From an uncultured Cohaesibacter sp. (GTDB taxonomy: Bacteria > Pseudomonadota > Alphaproteobacteria > Rhizobiales > Cohaesibacteraceae): a DNA stretch of 64,000 nucleotides. Under the pieces are notes generated by a model that was not told where the DNA came from, made no database searches, and saw only the letters and a list, made by a program, of their open reading frames with translations. A program made the translations under genes and the position numbers. Position 1 is the stretch's first letter. Each line of letters begins with the position of its first letter. The stretch spans positions 4,647,001 through 4,711,000 of the forward strand of contig NZ_OY761553.1 of assembly GCF_963664735.1 (NCBI RefSeq). Direction: 5' to 3'. Below are positions 40,875 to 60,799 of the stretch, piece after piece.

Positions 40875-41903
40875 GTGTTTATCAAGCGCATCAGGTCTTG
40901 GGCGATCCGGGAAAATCTTGTTACTGACGAGCAGCATTATCTCAATCGCAGGAGCTTTCTTAAAGGCTCTTCGCTTTTGATTGGTGGCGCGGCCTTTGGT
41001 CTTGCTGGCTGCGACGATGGCCTCAAGAGTGAAGCGCTCGAACGTGGCGAAGATGGCTCACTTAGCCAGATAACGGGTACGTCTGATTTCAAGGATCCGA
41101 CGTCGGATCTCTACCCCGCCTTGCGCAACGACGCTTACAAGGTACAGCGAGCCCTGTCTTTAGAGGACTATACGGCACGCTACAATAATTTCTACGAATT
41201 CGGCTCTCACAAGCAAATTGCAAATGCTGCCCAGCGGATGCAGATCCGCCCCTGGACCGTGACCATCGACGGCATGGTTGAAAAGGAAATGCTGCTGGAT
41301 ATCGACAAGCTCATCCGATCTATGGAGCTTGAAGAGCGCATCTATCGCCACAGATGCGTCGAGGCTTGGGCGATGACCATTCCATGGACAGGTTTTCCTC
41401 TTGCGGATTTGGTGCGCTTGGCCAAGCCCTTGTCTGGTGCCAAGTATATTCGCATGGAGACGTTTCAAAATTCCGATTGGGCCAGCGGGCAAAAGCAGGT
41501 TTGGTACCCATGGCCTTATAGTGAAGGTGTGACGATGGAAGAGGCAATGAATGAACTTGCCTTCCTTGTGACCGGCGTTTATGGCAAGCCCGCCGCCAAT
41601 CAGTTTGGGGCGCCGCTACGCCTCGCCTTGCCGTGGAAATATGGCTTCAAGTCGATCAAGTCGATTGTGCGCTTCACCTTTACCGATAAACGCCCCAGCA
41701 GCTTTTGGGAACAGTTGGCCTCTAAGGAATATGGCTTTTGGGCGAATGTGAATCCCGAGGTTCCCCATCCTCGCTGGAGCCAGGCCAAGGAACGGTTGTT
41801 GGGAACCAATGAGACGGTGCCCACGCGGCTCTTCAACGGCTATGGTGAGCAGGTTGCGCATTTATACAAAGATCTTGGCAAGACCGAGATGCTTTATCGC
41901 TAA
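40875..41903 (+). CDS. msrP: Protein-methionine-sulfoxide reductase catalytic subunit MsrP
   Basis: MsrP is a periplasmic molybdopterin enzyme that repairs oxidised methionines in envelope proteins. The 342-residue precursor has a twin-arginine signal (NRRSFLKGSSLLIGGAAFG), the molybdenum-ligand cysteine region YRHRCVEAWAMTIPWTGFPL and the C-terminal RWSQAKERLLG. I start at the GTG at 40875 (fMet-FIKRIRSW), typical of the family, with a G-run upstream; the frame is open to an ATG at 40794. Its usual partner, the heme membrane protein MsrQ, is not next to it. Confidence 0.9.
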   Translation: MFIKRIRSWAIRENLVTDEQHYLNRRSFLKGSSLLIGGAAFGLAGCDDGLKSEALERGEDGSLSQITGTSDFKDPTSDLYPALRNDAYKVQRALSLEDYTARYNNFYEFGSHKQIANAAQRMQIRPWTVTIDGMVEKEMLLDIDKLIRSMELEERIYRHRCVEAWAMTIPWTGFPLADLVRLAKPLSGAKYIRMETFQNSDWASGQKQVWYPWPYSEGVTMEEAMNELAFLVTGVYGKPAANQFGAPLRLALPWKYGFKSIKSIVRFTFTDKRPSSFWEQLASKEYGFWANVNPEVPHPRWSQAKERLLGTNETVPTRLFNGYGEQVAHLYKDLGKTEMLYR

Positions 41904-42150
41904 TCGAGTTTCGGGACGCATTTCTTCTCAAGCAGGATCGTTTGCGGCTGTCTGGTTCGACAGAGGCCAACTGGTCCTATGGACGTAAACTTGCGTTCTT
42001 GCGTAAGTGTTTTTTCAAATGAAACCACTTGGTGTGGAGCTGGGAAGATTTTATTCAGATTTGACAAAACTGCATGACAACAAATGTTGAATAAATGGTC
42101 ATGCCTAATATTTAATCAATTTTTCTGATTGTTGCTGGCTGAGCTGCGGA
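41904..42150. other. Intergenic stretch, nothing recognised
   Basis: The first 247 bases of the 538-base gap between msrP and the LysR gene hold no visible gene or clear site; the rest of the gap is described in the ncRNA, promoter and hairpin entries. Confidence 0.5.
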
Positions 42151-42288
42151 AAGAAAAAAAGCCGGACCGAAGTCCGGCTTATAAAGTTTTTCCGCACAAA
42201 AGTGCGGAGCAATCACCTTCCAGAGGGGAACAGCTGGCTACAAACATCGTCACAGGGAGGAGGTTAGTAACGATTATTGCCTTCAGCT
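42151..42288 (-). ncRNA. Candidate small regulatory RNA with anti-Shine-Dalgarno loop (AbcR/cuckoo-like)
   Basis: Three features line up on the minus strand. A promoter (42295-42323) predicts a start near 42288. A stem-loop at 42246-42274 (ATCGTTAC with GTGACGAT) displays CCTCCTCCC in its loop, the complement of a strong ribosome-binding site. The RNA would then continue through a second C-rich motif (TTCCCCTC), a CCGCAC/GTGCGG hairpin (42192-42207), and end at a 9-bp GC-rich terminator with seven Ts (42154-42180). Length is about 130 nt. It lies just downstream of an LsrB/VtlR-type gene; in Brucella, VtlR activates the sRNA abcR2, and AbcR RNAs use such anti-Shine-Dalgarno loops. The homology is inferred from structure and context, not alignment. 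Confidence 0.65.
42154..42180 (-). terminator. Rho-independent terminator of the sRNA candidate
   Basis: On the minus strand AAGCCGGAC-TTCG-GTCCGGCTT is a perfect 9-bp stem with a UUCG loop, followed by TTTTTCTTTCC. Confidence 0.85.
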
Positions 42289-42294
42289 GAGGCA

Positions 42295-42323
42295 TATATG
42301 CCTATTAAATAGTCGTTTTTCAA
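42295..42323 (-). promoter_or_regulatory. Sigma-70 promoter of the sRNA candidate
   Basis: On the minus strand TTGAAA (42318-42323) and CATATA (42295-42300) are exactly 17 bases apart. The predicted start is about 42288. Confidence 0.6.
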
Positions 42324-42382
42324 GAACCTCAGGTGCAGTCCTGTTATGCGGAATGTGCATGCCTATAGGGAATGTACTAATA

Positions 42383-42408
42383 CACCCATGAGCTTTCACT
42401 CATGGGTG
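42383..42408 (-). terminator. Hairpin after the LysR gene
   Basis: CACCCATGAG and CTCATGGGTG form a perfect 10-bp stem with a 6-base loop 34 bases after the LysR stop. There is no T tract, so it may stabilise the 3' end or stop transcription with help. Confidence 0.4.
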
Positions 42409-42441
42409 CAATATAAATTTCCGAAATGGTGATAAATAGGG

Positions 42442-43332
42442 TCAATAATGCCAGCTGGCGGCTTTTGACAGCAGAAAATCCCGCACTGCATTAATGCGCA
42501 TCGAGTTTCTCAATTCTGCGGCATACACAAAATATGTCTCGAAGCTTGGCATTTCCACACTAGGCAAAAGCTGAATCAGCTCATCGCGCGGGTGAACCAC
42601 ATAATCGGGAAGAATCGCTATGCCCGCGCCGCGCATCACCGCATTGCGGATGCCCAACAGGTTGTTCACCTTGAGAGCCATCTCGCGCTTCTTGCCAGGA
42701 GGCATTTGCGCGGTCTCGAGCCAGTTGACATCTTTGAGGTAGTTTGGATGGTTTTCACCAAAGCAGATAAGGCGATGCTGTTCCAGCTCATCCATAGAGC
42801 GCGGCTGGCTGAATTTTTTCAGATAGCTTGCTGATGCATATAAATGGAAGTGCACCGTGAACAGCTTTCTCTGAATGAGATCCGGCTGCGTCGGCTGGTG
42901 CAGGCGAATGGCGACGTCTGCCTGTCGCATGCCAAGATCAAGGTCGTCATTCTCAAGCAACAGGTTGAGCGAAATGCCCGGATAGAGCTCAAGAAATTCG
43001 GCCAGATGCTGGGTGAGCCAGGCCGATCCGAGGCCAACCGTCGTGGTAACGCGCAATTCGCCGGTTGGCTTTTCCTTGGAGTCTGTCAGGTGCGTGCGCA
43101 CCGTCTCCAGCTTCATGAGAACATCGTGTGCCGTGCGATAGAGCAGCTCGCCCTGCTCGGTCAGAATAAGCCCGCGCGCATGTCGGTGAAAAAGGGTTAC
43201 GCCAAGATCGGATTCAAGTGCGCTCACCTGTCTGGAAATAGCGGATTGGCTCATATGTAATTTGTCACCGGCGTGCGTGAAGCTGCCAGCGTCGGCGGCC
43301 GCATGAAATATGCGTAGTTTGTCCCAATCCAT
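42442..43332 (-). CDS. lsrB: LysR-family regulator, LsrB/VtlR type
   Basis: The 296-residue protein begins MDWDKLRIFHAAADAGSFTHAG with the helix-turn-helix LHMSQSAISRQVSALESDLG and the HARGLILTEQGELLYR wing typical of the alphaproteobacterial LsrB/VtlR group, followed by a periplasmic-binding-like effector domain. In Sinorhizobium, LsrB controls oxidative-stress and surface-polysaccharide genes; in Brucella, VtlR is needed for virulence and activates an sRNA. Only one cysteine is visible (HRLICFGENH). It lies downstream of trxB in the same direction, 213 bases away, which fits a redox role. The symbol is assigned by similarity from memory. Confidence 0.8.
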   Translation of the reverse strand: MDWDKLRIFHAAADAGSFTHAGDKLHMSQSAISRQVSALESDLGVTLFHRHARGLILTEQGELLYRTAHDVLMKLETVRTHLTDSKEKPTGELRVTTTVGLGSAWLTQHLAEFLELYPGISLNLLLENDDLDLGMRQADVAIRLHQPTQPDLIQRKLFTVHFHLYASASYLKKFSQPRSMDELEQHRLICFGENHPNYLKDVNWLETAQMPPGKKREMALKVNNLLGIRNAVMRGAGIAILPDYVVHPRDELIQLLPSVEMPSFETYFVYAAELRNSMRINAVRDFLLSKAASWHY

Positions 43333-43545: not shown

Positions 43546-44490
43546 TTATTCAGCGTCTTCTTGTTCGGCCAGATAGCGTTCGGCCTCAAGAGCTGCCATG
43601 CAGCCCATGCCAGCAGCTGTTACAGCCTGTCGATATTTGTCATCTGTGACATCTCCGGCGGCAAAAACGCCCGGAATCGATGTCATTGTCGAATCAGGAG
43701 CGGTCCAGATATAGCCGTTTTCCTTCATCTTCAGCGTGTCTTTGAACAGCTCAACTGCGGGTGCGTGGCCAATGGCGACAAAGATGCCATCTGCCGTGAT
43801 TTCCGAAATCTCACCGGTCTTGACGTTGCGCAGCTTGGCGCCGCTTACGCTGGGAGGAAAGCCTTCCTTGCCGACAAATTCCTCAACCACCGTGTCCCAG
43901 ATAACCTCAATCTTGGGGTTCTTCTCAAGGCGGTGTTGTAGAATTCTCTCCGCTCGGAATTCATCTCGGCGATGAATGACGGTTACCTTGCTGGCGTGGT
44001 GGGTCAAATAAAGAGCTTCTTCCACGGCAGTGTTGCCGCCGCCAATGACCAGCACTTCCTTGCCGCGATAGAAAAAGCCATCACAGGTCGCGCAGGCAGA
44101 AATGCCGAAGCCTTTGAACTTCTCTTCTGTTTCCATGCCCAGCCAGCGAGCCTGGGCTCCTGTGGCGATGATGATGCTGTCTGCGGTATATTCCGTGCCG
44201 GAATCGCCGACGGCTTTATACGGGCGTGAGGACAGGTCTACGCTTGTAATGATATCGGATACCAGATTGGTTCCGACATTCTTGGCCTGCGCTTTCATTT
44301 GTTCCATCAGCCACGGCCCCTGAATCTCTTCAGCAAACCCCGGATAGTTTTCCAGCTCAGTGGTAATGGTCAGCTGACCACCTTCCTGCATGCCAGCGAC
44401 AAGCGTTGGTTCAAGCATGGCGCGGGCAGCATAAATGGCGGCTGTGTAACCTGCCGGTCCAGAGCCAATGATCAAGACTTTGCTATGCAT
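43546..44490 (-). CDS. trxB: Thioredoxin-disulfide reductase
   Basis: TrxB reduces thioredoxin with NADPH. The 314-residue flavoprotein has the FAD motif VLIIGSGPAGYTAAIYAAR, the redox-active pair Cys133-Cys136 (SACATCDGFFYRG), the NADPH site VLVIGGGNTAVEEALYL and the C-terminal GVFAAGDVTDDKYRQAV. It follows an ELM1-like gene by 60 bases and precedes the LysR gene. Confidence 0.95.
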   Translation of the reverse strand: MHSKVLIIGSGPAGYTAAIYAARAMLEPTLVAGMQEGGQLTITTELENYPGFAEEIQGPWLMEQMKAQAKNVGTNLVSDIITSVDLSSRPYKAVGDSGTEYTADSIIIATGAQARWLGMETEEKFKGFGISACATCDGFFYRGKEVLVIGGGNTAVEEALYLTHHASKVTVIHRRDEFRAERILQHRLEKNPKIEVIWDTVVEEFVGKEGFPPSVSGAKLRNVKTGEISEITADGIFVAIGHAPAVELFKDTLKMKENGYIWTAPDSTMTSIPGVFAAGDVTDDKYRQAVTAAGMGCMAALEAERYLAEQEDAE

Positions 44491-56357: not shown

Positions 56358-58442
56358 ATGGCAACAAAGGCAATGCAAAACGACGATAAGACCAACAGCG
56401 AAAGCTCCAGCTCGGATGCTCCATTGTTGGATATGACAGCGTCTGCTGTCAAGCAGATGATTAAAACCGCAAAGAAGCGCGGTTATGTCACCTATGATGA
56501 ATTAAACGAAGTTTTGCCGTCGGAAGAAGTTTCCTCTGAACAAATTGAAGATACCATGTCCATGCTGTCAGACATGGGGATCAATGTGATCGAGTCGGAA
56601 GAAGCTGACGATAACGATGACTCTGGTGCTTCTTCAGATGATGATTCAGATAGTGACTCCAAGGAGCTTGTTGAATCAAAAGGGTCCACTGCGGTTGCCA
56701 AGACGACCACGAGCAAGGAACCAACGGATCGCACAGATGATCCGGTGCGCATGTATTTGCGTGAGATGGGCTCGGTGGAGCTGCTTTCCCGCGAAGGCGA
56801 GATTGCCATTGCCAAGCGTATCGAGGCTGGCCGTGAGGCCATGATCGCCGGTTTGTGCGAAAGCCCATTGACTTTCCAGGCTATTATTATTTGGCGCGAT
56901 GAATTGCTGGAAGGCAATATTCTTCTTCGTGACATCATTGACCTTGAGGCCACATATGCTGGCCCTGGCAATGAAGAAGATGAAGAGGAAGATAGTGACG
57001 AGGAAAGTGAAGGGGCAGAGGAAAATGCCTCTCCGGCTCCTGCCTCTGACGCTGCTGAAAAGCCTGTGGCAGCTGCCGCGCAAAAGCCTGCTTCTGAAGA
57101 TGGTGAAGAAAATCAGGAGGGGGAAGGCTCTGGTGAAGAAGAGGATGACGAGGACGATGATGATCTCGAAAACAACCTCTCGCTCGCTGCGATGGAAGCT
57201 GAGCTGAAGCCGAAAGTTCTGCTTATCTTTGATCAGATTGCTGAAGACTATAAGAAGCTGCGCCGTTTGCAGGATCAGCTCAATGAGCAACGCATGGCAA
57301 GCAAATCCCTGTCACCAAGTCAGGAACGCCGCTATGACAAGCTGAAAGAAGACATTATCGTCGAGGTCAAGAGCCTGTCGCTCAACCAGAACCGTATTGA
57401 TGCTCTGGTATCCCAGCTCTATGAAATCAACAAGCAGTTGGTTGGTCGCGAAGGGCGCCTTCTGCGTTTGGCAGAAGCTTATGGTGTCAACCGTTCGGAA
57501 TTTTTGAAAAACTATCAGGGCAACGAGCTGGATCCGAACTGGATCGAGCGCGTTTCTCAACTGACAAGCCGTGGCTGGAAAGAATTCGTCCATCATGAAG
57601 GGGATCGGATTCAGGACCTGCGCGAAGACATCCAGATGCTGTCTACCGAATCCGGTCTGGAGATTGCTGAATTCCGCCGCATCGTTTCTTCCGTGCAGAA
57701 GGGCGAGCGTGAAGCACGTCAGGCCAAGAAAGAAATGGTGGAAGCCAACCTGCGTCTGGTTATCTCGATTGCCAAGAAATATACCAACCGCGGTTTGCAG
57801 TTCCTCGATCTCATTCAGGAAGGCAACATCGGCTTGATGAAGGCCGTTGATAAGTTCGAATATCGCCGTGGTTACAAATTCTCGACCTATGCCACATGGT
57901 GGATCAGACAGGCGATCACCCGCTCTATTGCGGACCAGGCTCGCACGATCCGTATTCCTGTGCACATGATCGAGACGATCAACAAGATCGTTCGCACGTC
58001 ACGTCAAATGCTTCACGAGATCGGGCGCGAACCGACACCGGAAGAGCTCAGCGAAAAGCTGCAAATGCCGCTTGAGAAGGTGCGCAAGGTTCTCAAGATT
58101 GCCAAGGAACCAATCTCTCTTGAAACCCCGATCGGGGATGAGGAAGATTCCCATCTTGGCGATTTCATCGAGGACAAGAATGCGATCCTGCCAATCGATG
58201 CGGCCATTCAGGCAAACCTGCGCGAGACCACGACCCGCGTTCTGGCTTCGCTCACCCCGCGTGAAGAACGCGTGCTGCGCATGCGCTTCGGTATCGGCAT
58301 GAACACCGACCACACGCTAGAAGAGGTTGGTCAGCAATTCTCGGTGACCCGCGAACGTATTCGCCAGATCGAGGCAAAGGCCCTGCGTAAGCTGAAGCAT
58401 CCAAGCCGCTCGCGCAAACTGCGAAGCTTCCTTGACAGCTAA
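56358..58442 (+). CDS. rpoD: RNA polymerase primary sigma factor RpoD
   Basis: The 694-residue protein is the housekeeping sigma-70. It has region 1.1 ([24 protein letters not shown]), region 1.2 ([21 protein letters not shown]), region 2 ([57 protein letters not shown]), region 3 and region 4 with the final helix-turn-helix ([27 protein letters not shown]). The non-conserved region between 1.2 and 2 contains a strongly acidic Glu/Asp-rich stretch of about 85 residues (from about residue 210). GGAG lies six bases before the ATG at 56358. A terminator follows. Confidence 0.97.
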
Positions 58443-58468
58443 GCGATTTGCCCGATTGAACCTTTCAG

Positions 58469-58494
58469 AGCCCGGCGGAGAGGCCGGGCTTTTT
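58469..58494 (+). terminator. Rho-independent terminator of rpoD
   Basis: AGCCCGGC and GCCGGGCT form a perfect 8-bp GC-rich stem with a 6-base loop followed by TTTT, 26 bases after the stop. Confidence 0.88.
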
Positions 58495-58620
58495 GTTTCC
58501 ATCTTGCTGCTCTTGAGAATGAATGTGTGCGGGGCTGAATAATCGTGCGTAACTGCGCGGAAAAGTTGCGCAAAGTGTTTCTGCTTGCCATTGTTGGAGG
58601 GCACAAGGCGGAGCGGATTT

Positions 58621-60741
58621 ATGGCGCTGGAAATCGATTCTCGAGAAGAACTGAGAGCTTGGCTTGAGGGTAAGCCAAAGGACTGGGCGCAGGCGATTGC
58701 CGTTCGTGCTGCGCTCAGGGTGTTTCCTATGGTGTTCGAAGACACTTTTGTGTCGGCTGAAAGCTTGTCTCTGCAGCAAAAGCAGAGCTTGATCTTACAG
58801 GTCTATCGCGCGACTTTCATCTCATGGGCTGCGCGAAAATATCCGGCCCATGATATGAGCGTTGCCGCCTCCCGTGCTGCCAATGTAGCTACACGTGCCT
58901 CCATCCGTGCCACTGATGCAGCCAATGCAGCCATCCGTGCGGCCACTTTTTCCGCCCAAGCCATCGATATAGCCCGAGCTACTACCGATGCCGCCAATGC
59001 CGCGGCCATAGCTGCCGCCTTTGCCGATGCCGATGCTGCTCGGGTTTGGGTGGCCATCAGTGCGGATTGTGAATGGCTAGAGCAAAGGGGGAATAGTCTC
59101 ATTGACCAGCCGATCTGGCTTGACGATGTACGCGGCAATGAACGCACTTTGTCGAATTACCCCGTCTGGGTTCGCCGTCCGTTTGATCGCTTTGCCAAAA
59201 GCGACGAATGGGGGAGGCAGAAAGAATGGGGCCTCATTCTCTCATGGTATCGCTCGCTCCTGCCTGACAGTATGGAATACCAGCCTCGCAGCTATTTCGG
59301 CGAAAAGGCCGACATCAAGATCGCAACGCAGCCCGATGATTTCTGGACCATATCCGAAAACCGCAGCGCTGTGCAAATCCTCCGCGAGGTTGGGGCGGTC
59401 GCCGGGATTGATATGAACTCTCCTGAGGAGCTGCTGACGCCTCATGAGACGGATGATAGAGAACTCAACTGGTCTGAGCGGATTGTTAGCTATTTGTTGG
59501 AAAGGGGACAATCAACAACTCTTGGAGAAATCAGGGCGCACTTCAGAATGTTCGATCCAGCCCCAGCAGATACGACTCTTCGAGGTCGGTTAAGTGACCT
59601 CGCAAAACGTAGTTTGATCGTGCGGATAAAAAAGGGCGTCTATATTCATCCGAATTTCGCAAAAGCATCGTCATCAGGCGACGCCGAGCGCATACAAGAG
59701 CTCAAAGCCGATATCCAAACAGCTATAGAGAATGTGGAGCCTCAAGCCCCTGCCGCGTACCGGTTTGCTTGGCAAAATGGCAAGGTTGAGGCTGTGCCAA
59801 TTGATAATGTCTCGACTAATTCTCGTGGTGCTCAAGCCTTTCTCGATGAAGCTAGGCGGAAAGGACAAGCACTTGCTGAACGCTTAGAAAAGTCTAATGC
59901 TGCTCCAAGGGTGAGGCAGTCCATTTATGGCTTGATGGAAGTTTTGCCTCCCTCACTTGATGACCTCAATGAATATTTGTTGCGTTCCCGGGCCATGTCT
60001 GTTGAGGCGGACGCAATAGCCTATTCTAAACCGTCGGACGAGTTGGATCTTTTTCCTGATGCTGTGTCAGGGCTGTTGGATCTGTCAGGAACCTTGCGGA
60101 GCTTGCAAGGCTTCTATCCTCAGTTGCTTGAGCTAGATATTTCCGTCGCTGCTCTGGAGCTTGATCCGCGGAAAGCCGACAGTGCCAAAGAGACATTCGA
60201 CAAGATTGTCGATATCGCAGAAACTGCTCCGGAGGTCTCCGGCGCTTCTGCAACAGAGGCTCTTGAAACCGTCAAGAAAATCGCGGAAGAGGAAGCTGCT
60301 GAGCCTGTCAGGCACAGGCGTATCGCAGAATACGGCCTTGTTGTTCGAAACTATGTTGATCCCGTTGTTCGCGCCGCTCTGGACAATGCCTTTACGCGAG
60401 AGGCCAAGCGTCTAGGGACGGAAGTTTACAAGGAAGCACGTCCAAAGATTGTCAAAGGTGCAAGCGATGGTTTGGGAGACATGGCGCGTCCGATAACAAT
60501 TTTGGCGATTTCGGGAATGGTTGCTTTATTGTTCGGGCCAGCTGCAGGAGCGGCAGCTGCAGCTGGAGGGTTTGGCAAAATTGATAAGATGCTTGGTTAC
60601 GCCATGAAGTGGTTGAAAAAGGGAGCTGAAGAAGACCGCTCGGAAAAATTGGATGATACGACCGACTCTAGGTCTAGCCAAGATGATGAGCCGTCTGACG
60701 ACGGTGCCGATACTAGTTTAGACGCTGATGACGAGGTTTAA
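58621..60741 (+). CDS. Modular 706-residue protein of unknown function (Ala-rich repeat, winged-helix-like domain, C-terminal membrane segment)
   Basis: I recognise the layout but no function. Residues 1-80 are helical (IAVRAALRVFPMVFED). Residues 82-142 are an Ala-rich repeat with a short period (AASRAANVATRAS, DAANAAIRAA). Residues 143-225 (WVAISADCEWLEQRG, WGLILSWYRSLLP) resemble a module seen in other rhizobial hypothetical proteins. Residues 284-345 fit a winged helix (GEIRAHFRM, TTLRGRLSDLAKRSLIVRIKKGVYIH). Residues 624-650 are a Gly/Ala-rich hydrophobic segment, and the tail is acidic. The ATG at 58621 follows GGCGGAG. It stands alone between rpoD and its own terminator. A role in DNA binding at the membrane is only a guess. 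Confidence 0.6.
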   Translation: MALEIDSREELRAWLEGKPKDWAQAIAVRAALRVFPMVFEDTFVSAESLSLQQKQSLILQVYRATFISWAARKYPAHDMSVAASRAANVATRASIRATDAANAAIRAATFSAQAIDIARATTDAANAAAIAAAFADADAARVWVAISADCEWLEQRGNSLIDQPIWLDDVRGNERTLSNYPVWVRRPFDRFAKSDEWGRQKEWGLILSWYRSLLPDSMEYQPRSYFGEKADIKIATQPDDFWTISENRSAVQILREVGAVAGIDMNSPEELLTPHETDDRELNWSERIVSYLLERGQSTTLGEIRAHFRMFDPAPADTTLRGRLSDLAKRSLIVRIKKGVYIHPNFAKASSSGDAERIQELKADIQTAIENVEPQAPAAYRFAWQNGKVEAVPIDNVSTNSRGAQAFLDEARRKGQALAERLEKSNAAPRVRQSIYGLMEVLPPSLDDLNEYLLRSRAMSVEADAIAYSKPSDELDLFPDAVSGLLDLSGTLRSLQGFYPQLLELDISVAALELDPRKADSAKETFDKIVDIAETAPEVSGASATEALETVKKIAEEEAAEPVRHRRIAEYGLVVRNYVDPVVRAALDNAFTREAKRLGTEVYKEARPKIVKGASDGLGDMARPITILAISGMVALLFGPAAGAAAAAGGFGKIDKMLGYAMKWLKKGAEEDRSEKLDDTTDSRSSQDDEPSDDGADTSLDADDEV

Positions 60742-60762
60742 CCCTCTGCCAATCTGATTCAT

Positions 60763-60799
60763 AAAGGCCGGACAAGTTGTTGTCCGGCCTTTGTTTTTT
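60763..60799 (+). terminator. Rho-independent terminator after the 706-residue gene
   Basis: AAAGGCCGGACAA and TTGTCCGGCCTTT form a perfect 13-bp stem with a 4-base loop, followed by GTTTTTTG. Confidence 0.88.

Follow-up and report, generated by a model that had tools for sequence, protein, structure and literature searches.

A single-copy AbcR-type (ar15) small RNA gene downstream of lsrB in Cohaesibacter

The location of AbcR small RNA genes downstream of the regulator gene lsrB/vtlR has already been published for Agrobacterium and Sinorhizobium. The VtlR box was described as GCAT-N3-TG-N3-T between -61 and -49 of PabcR1 (PMC8844928, PMC7486931), and AbcR1 was reported to be lost in a vtlR mutant of A. 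tumefaciens (PMC7486931). For AbcR1 of S. meliloti the published results are in conflict: in one report lsrB was without effect (PMC7486931), whereas in another one promoter fusions and binding assays revealed a strong effect of LsrB (PMC8844928). The S. meliloti AbcR2 is reported to be under the control of RpoH1 (PMC8844928). In the same species, the anti-Shine-Dalgarno (anti-SD) motifs aSD1 and aSD2 were tested and turned out to be independent seeds for the repression of transport mRNAs (PMC8844928). Brucella has two AbcR copies on two chromosomes, with M2, either alone or together with M1, being responsible for the regulation of most transcripts (PMC5461406). On the side of the regulator, C144 and C273 are common to LsrB of A. 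tumefaciens, S. meliloti, and B. abortus; in A. tumefaciens a change of C273 led to more H2O2 sensitivity, whereas a change of C144 alone did not (PMC11975290).

We analyzed a stretch of 64,000 nucleotides (the window) from an uncultured Cohaesibacter sp.; a literature search for small RNAs in this genus gave no papers. As judged from its sequence, the region 42152-42290 on the minus strand can firmly be assigned to the AbcR (ar15) small RNAs and therefore encodes an RNA of a known kind. Very probably, it is an LsrB-activated, single-copy AbcR that would repress, together with Hfq, uptake mRNAs via two anti-SD motifs.

The elements of the locus follow each other on the minus strand from 42349 to 42152 in the order box, promoter, 5' hairpin, linker, second hairpin, and U-tailed terminator. 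The small RNA gene of about 138 nt (42152..42290, minus) is delimited by the matches to ar15 and to R1, a model introduced below, and its start is inferred. The 5' hairpin (42231..42289) is closed by CAGCTG arms at 42289-42284 and 42236-42231, its inner stem shows compensatory changes in the alignment, and its loop exposes CCUCCUCCC. Anti-SD motif 1 (aSD1/M1), CCTCCTCCC, resides in this loop at 42255..42263. The linker between the hairpins is UUCCCCUC, and anti-SD motif 2 (aSD2/M2), TTCCCCTC, follows the first hairpin at 42223..42230. The second hairpin, TCCGCAC-N4-GTGCGGA (42191..42208), was predicted by folding and exhibits both-side pair changes in the alignment A1. The intrinsic terminator (42152..42180) consists of a stem at 42180-42159 and a T tail to 42152, and the ar15 and R1 matches both stop there. 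A terminator scan of 41850-42500 yielded four sites, compared to 0.7 in shuffled sequences, and two of the four represent the terminator of the small RNA. The predicted fold of 42151-42290 has an energy of -54.5 kcal/mol, while the shuffle mean was -32.5 (z -5.6; 0 of 200 shuffles were as good). Thus, the loop-motif hairpin, the second C-rich motif, the second hairpin, and the U-tailed terminator that an earlier note had read on this strand are all present.

Conservation was analyzed with 61 genomes. BLAST found the small RNA in 26 of them, including 17 of the 18 same-genus genomes (own genome counted), and the order trxB-lsrB-sRNA was likewise present in 17 of 18, the exception being G005, which is 64% complete. 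A set of 23 loci was used for an alignment, from which L020 and L025 were left out since the 460 bases extracted did not contain the anchor TTCCCC. L023 is badly aligned in it, an upstream match having served as the anchor. Across congeners and other families, the conserved parts comprise the box, TTG in the -35 element, GCATATA, both anti-SD motifs, CAGCTGTTCCCCTCTGGAAGGTGATT, and the terminator, and the flanks diverge. All 17 congeneric loci keep the box (as GCAT-N3-[AT]G-N3-T), both anti-SD motifs, the aSD1 core CTCCTCCC, and the terminator, so that the conservation of loop and terminator among relatives, which the earlier note had made decisive for its proposal, was found in all 17 of them. 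In the alignment A1 (23 rows, 21 distinct) aSD2, TTCCCCTC, is invariant in 23 of 23 rows, and so is the CTGTTCCCCTCT block. Both-side changes were observed in 13 of 28 pairs, compared to 6.3 in shuffles, and 94.9% of the cells are paired, versus 29-54% when the structure was slid along the alignment. None of 500 shuffles reached any of the five structure measures, a comparison that is favoured by the derivation of the structure from the same alignment.

At its own cut-offs, Rfam called only a tRNA in the whole window, and the small RNA was not called. The covariance search suggested in the earlier note was carried out permissively on 41900-42450 (551 bases), and ar15 (RF02345) was the top match by score and E-value; it covers 42153-42288 over the full model length with 32.0 bits and an E-value of 9.7e-5, though the gathering threshold of 40 bits was not reached. 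For five congeneric loci, window included, the ar15 scores were 28.2-33.4 bits and thus all below 40, which indicates that the Rfam ar15 model misses this branch. R1, the model built from A1, matched 42153-42291 with 148.2 bits, the sequence being among those from which R1 was built. Of 16 R1-positive loci submitted to Rfam at its full cut-off, 11 received an ar15 call, with 13 copies at the R1 positions, and the five uncalled loci (L032, L041, L042, L047, L049) had R1 scores of 73.6 to 137.3 bits. Because relatives at the same locus pass the cut-off and the R1 matches coincide with the calls, the small RNA of the window was filed as ar15 by homology and not by cut-off. It also has the ar15 build: fold and covariation agree with the three hairpins (5' hairpin, second hairpin, terminator), the first loop holds aSD1/M1, aSD2/M2 is situated between the hairpins, and the synteny with lsrB/vtlR is that of the AbcR1 type.

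The earlier note had recognized the build of both the AbcR and the cuckoo/CcsR RNAs, and only the former part holds. ar14 (RF02344), which we take to be the family that holds the cuckoo/CcsR RNAs, also aligned over its full length with the CCTCCTCCC loop in register, as would be expected for an anti-SD RNA with the same loop motif that belongs to this other family and has another controller. However, the ar14 score of 24.9 bits is far from the cut-off of 58.8 and weaker than that of ar15, which argues for AbcR rather than cuckoo, and the invariant CTGTTCCCCTCT, the lsrB neighbourhood, and the ar15 calls that Rfam made at the corresponding site for 11 of the 16 relatives tested all fit AbcR. 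A cuckoo/CcsR-type RNA is thus largely refuted and very improbable. Matches of the terminator half to further Rfam families (ncS025, anti-hemB, SorY, SorX, TarB, MicC, and others) were far below the cut-offs, share hairpins and a U tail, and were rejected as chance, as was FourU at 42379-42417 (18.1 of 60 bits).

R1 was also run on the best 80 of at least 585 confirmed lsrB loci; these 80 are 58-83% identical to the window lsrB. In 70 of these 80 loci, it yielded 76 matches of at least 25 bits downstream on the lsrB strand. No such match was obtained for L043, L044, L046, L053, L056, L060, L100, L106, L107, and L110. L044 contains 606 masked bases. In L100 an R1 match of 51.4 bits lies upstream on the opposite strand, weaker opposite-strand matches are present in L107 and L043 (27.3 and 24.3 bits), and in L110 a match at the expected place reaches 18.1 bits. 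The Cohaesibacter MAG L032 (lsrB 83% identical) is possibly identical to a genome that supplied sequence for R1. Among the 76 lsrB-linked AbcRs from these best 80 loci, TTCCCC (aSD2) is present in 71 and an aSD1-like motif in 75, R1 having been trained on sequences with aSD1. Two records stand out. L099, titled Bacillus subtilis and presumably misnamed or contaminated, contains an lsrB-type gene (60% identical), an AbcR, and a box. In L102 (5128-5798, a Rhizobium setariae record), lsrB is followed by three tandem AbcR matches, each with a GCAT box.

Upstream of the small RNA a putative LsrB/VtlR box, GCATAACAGGACTG (42336..42349, minus), starts 58 nt before the inferred RNA start; the range of the earlier note, 42151..42323, excludes it. 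The box has one mismatch to GCAT-N3-TG-N3-T, an A for a T that results in AG instead of TG. The congeners have AG in 15 and TG in 2 of 17 boxes, and 16 of the 76 other AbcR genes (best 80 of at least 585 lsrB loci) have the AG form at the same position. In this set, the strict TG box was found at 50 of 76 genes, compared to 0.015 expected per 120 nt. The widened pattern GCAT-N3-[AT]G-N3-T, which the window box requires and which was defined after the congener alignment had been viewed, is present upstream of 66 of 76 genes (expected 0.023 per 120 nt), in 64 of the 66 cases between -57 and -62. The remaining 10 of 76 genes, i.e., the second copy of the tandem in each of L086, L090, L095, and L101 as well as genes of L039, L047, L082, L104, L109, and L111, have no box; the boxless second tandem copies agree with the published control of AbcR2 by RpoH1. 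A palindromic box, GCAT-N7-TGC, was dropped because its spacing is off by one and it matched only 3 of 76 genes.

The predicted promoter (42295..42324, minus) comprises a -35 element CTTGAA (42324-42319), a spacer of 17 nt, and a -10 element GCATAT (42301-42296). The alphaproteobacterial consensus is CTTGAC-N17-CTATAT (PMC8844928). TTGAAA-N17-CATATA, the sigma-70 promoter of the earlier note, is indeed there (42323-42318 and 42300-42295), consensus-like and conserved, but a generic sigma-70 scan found no promoter. Our call is therefore based on the likeness to the alphaproteobacterial consensus and on conservation. A perfect 12-base palindrome, GGCATATATGCC (42302-42291, minus), overlaps the -10 element; among the 17 congeners only L002-L010 keep it.

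The missing scan hit, together with the location of the small RNA on the same strand as lsrB and about 151 nt after its stop (42442), could also be explained if the RNA were just the 3' end of the lsrB mRNA, i.e., a long 3'-UTR with its terminator. Against this, conservation covers the box, the -35, and the -10 but not the stretch that separates lsrB from the box, and the length of this gap ranges between 85 and 1456 nt at other loci; in S. meliloti, moreover, AbcR1 and AbcR2 are each transcribed as a unit of their own (PMC3712013). We regard the 3'-UTR explanation as very improbable and retain that of an RNA with its own promoter. An inverted repeat, CACCCATGAG/CTCATGGGTG (42408-42383, minus), is situated just past the lsrB stop, and its form is kept in the close congeners L003-L010; perhaps it marks the end of the lsrB mRNA. 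On the other side, the small RNA is followed by the convergent gene msrP (403 bits versus a cut-off of 207, NCBIfam).

The earlier statement that the region contains no ORF is not literally true, as six frames of 21-53 aa overlap it. The sole minus-strand ATG frame among them (42295-42179) could encode a protein of 38 aa as the functional or as a second product, and it does overlap the small RNA. However, its ATG at 42295 lies inside the -10 element, ahead of the point where the RNA probably begins, and 8 of 17 congeners (L011-L018) do not have it. Conservation tracks the RNA pairing, with compensatory changes. The probability of a functional protein is thus close to nil, and the RNA remains the product to be considered.

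The upstream neighbour on the same strand is lsrB/vtlR (42442..43332, minus; 296 aa, Pfam HTH_1 and LysR_substrate), preceded by trxB (43546..44490, minus; Pfam Pyr_redox_2, named by synteny), which is the neighbour of lsrB in 17 of 17 congeneric loci. With this gene order and 65% identity to a Brucella copy, the LsrB/VtlR type proposed for the regulator in the earlier note was borne out. The protein has a single Cys, at position 190. All 17 congener proteins have Val at positions 140 and 269, which were taken as the equivalents of C144 and C273 by a constant offset of four via the Brucella and Rhizobium copies; five of the 17 contain no cysteine at all. The copies from Brucella, Rhizobium, and Shinella (L046, L071, L086) have Cys at both positions. 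Among 103 aligned LsrB-type proteins, the first Cys is present in 54 and the second in 31. Judging from these residues, the window protein is LsrB-type by sequence and synteny and does not appear to be a thiol sensor of the C144/C273 design. Both cysteines are also missing in 12 of the 64 loci with AbcR and box (best 80 of at least 585 lsrB loci), including a Cohaesibacter record. As the link between lsrB, box, and AbcR is present at these loci and in all 17 congeners, it need not depend on the redox switch.

A second AbcR-like RNA was predicted in 8 of 18 same-genus genomes, that of the window not among them. These paralogues (L115-L122, from G004, G014, G007, G001, G013, G010, G003, and G002) have R1 scores of 99.1-106.4 bits, and the five run through Rfam have ar15 scores of 26.9-34.0 bits. 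Neither lsrB nor trxB nor msrP was found within the 1.6-3.1 kb examined around any of the eight, and the three for which ORFs were listed have three different neighbourhoods. All eight keep the aSD2 block and the terminator, and all eight have neither CTCC in the 5' hairpin, i.e., no aSD1, nor an LsrB box. Among the AbcR papers listed, no title or abstract opening reports an aSD1-less AbcR. A second AbcR in the genome of the window was rejected, as all other R1 or ar15 matches had at most 22.5 bits. In the 350 bases inspected for each of five weak R1 matches of this genome (L154-L158), TTCCCC was absent from both strands, and only L156 contains CTCCTCC; they were rejected, and R1 E-values near 1e-3 were therefore not trusted. 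With R1, 46 of 61 genomes pass an E-value of 0.01, and only 29 have a match of at least 41 bits, 23 of these having supplied R1 rows. Two R1 matches in the window (58387-58497 and 60678-60796) end in ordinary terminators and are not AbcR.

The activity of the small RNA can be predicted by analogy with its relatives, which would apply to its transcription, LsrB dependence, Hfq binding, and repression. LsrB/VtlR, whose gene directly precedes the small RNA on this strand, would bind the box at about -58 and activate the sigma-70 promoter, and the single-copy RNA would end at the intrinsic terminator. Together with Hfq, for which the genome has one gene (E 1.5e-31), the two exposed anti-SD motifs would pair with ribosome-binding sites, chiefly of mRNAs for ABC-transporter binding proteins. 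The pairing would lower translation and stability of the targets, and one regulator would thereby set the nutrient-uptake profile.

Target preference was analyzed with the genes of three Pfam binding-protein families, of whose 53 matches 51 were used (two had no locus). The background was drawn from the window and from 400 kb in addition and comprised 335 ORFs (341 minus the 6 shared), of which some are surely not genes. Start sites were taken from a simple SD rule, and some are visibly wrong (e.g., L165, L178). The predicted aSD1 pairing was stronger at the starts of the 51 binding-protein genes than at the 335 background ORFs (p 7.7e-5). The bias was still seen when the pairing with a 16S tail had been regressed out (p 3.8e-4); the best of 50 shuffled fragments reached 0.0043, uncorrected. 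The effect is a shift of the mean only, as 6% of the binding-protein genes are within the strongest 5% of the background. For aSD2 no preference for binding-protein gene starts was observed (p 0.62; 51 versus 335). The results weakly suggest a preference for binding-protein mRNAs, through aSD1 only.

Taken together, the results extend the well-studied lsrB-AbcR module to a further lineage, Cohaesibacter, which the Rfam ar15 cut-off misses; the function of the window RNA as an uptake repressor would follow by analogy. Two features seem to go beyond the known scheme, an LsrB without both redox cysteines and a distant paralogue without aSD1 and LsrB box. The genus may have rewired AbcR at both ends, with LsrB still driving the two-motif AbcR but answering another signal, as it would no longer sense oxidants via the conserved cysteines, and the paralogue acting as an aSD2-only regulator, so that targets would be split by motif, a speculation that we place slightly on the doubtful side. 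The paralogues that keep aSD2 and lack aSD1 offer a natural way of telling the roles of the two motifs apart.

The locus can be compared with three described systems. With AbcR1 of Agrobacterium tumefaciens and Sinorhizobium meliloti it shares the site downstream of lsrB/vtlR, the three-hairpin build, the CUCCUCCC loop, the UUCCCCUC linker, a putative LsrB-type box near -60, and the U-tailed terminator. In contrast to the tandem pair of these species, a single genomic copy is present here, the RNA of about 138 nt exceeds the 112 positions of the ar15 model and scores under the Rfam cut-off, and LsrB is without the two conserved cysteines. With the VtlR-activated AbcR2 of Brucella abortus, one of two copies in that genus as opposed to one here, it has in common the VtlR-type regulator, a putative box like GCAT-N3-TG-N3-T, and M1 and M2. 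With ar14 it shares CCUCCUCCC in a hairpin loop and a terminator, at a score of 24.9 versus a cut-off of 58.8 bits, and the ar14 RNAs have another genomic setting and another controller.
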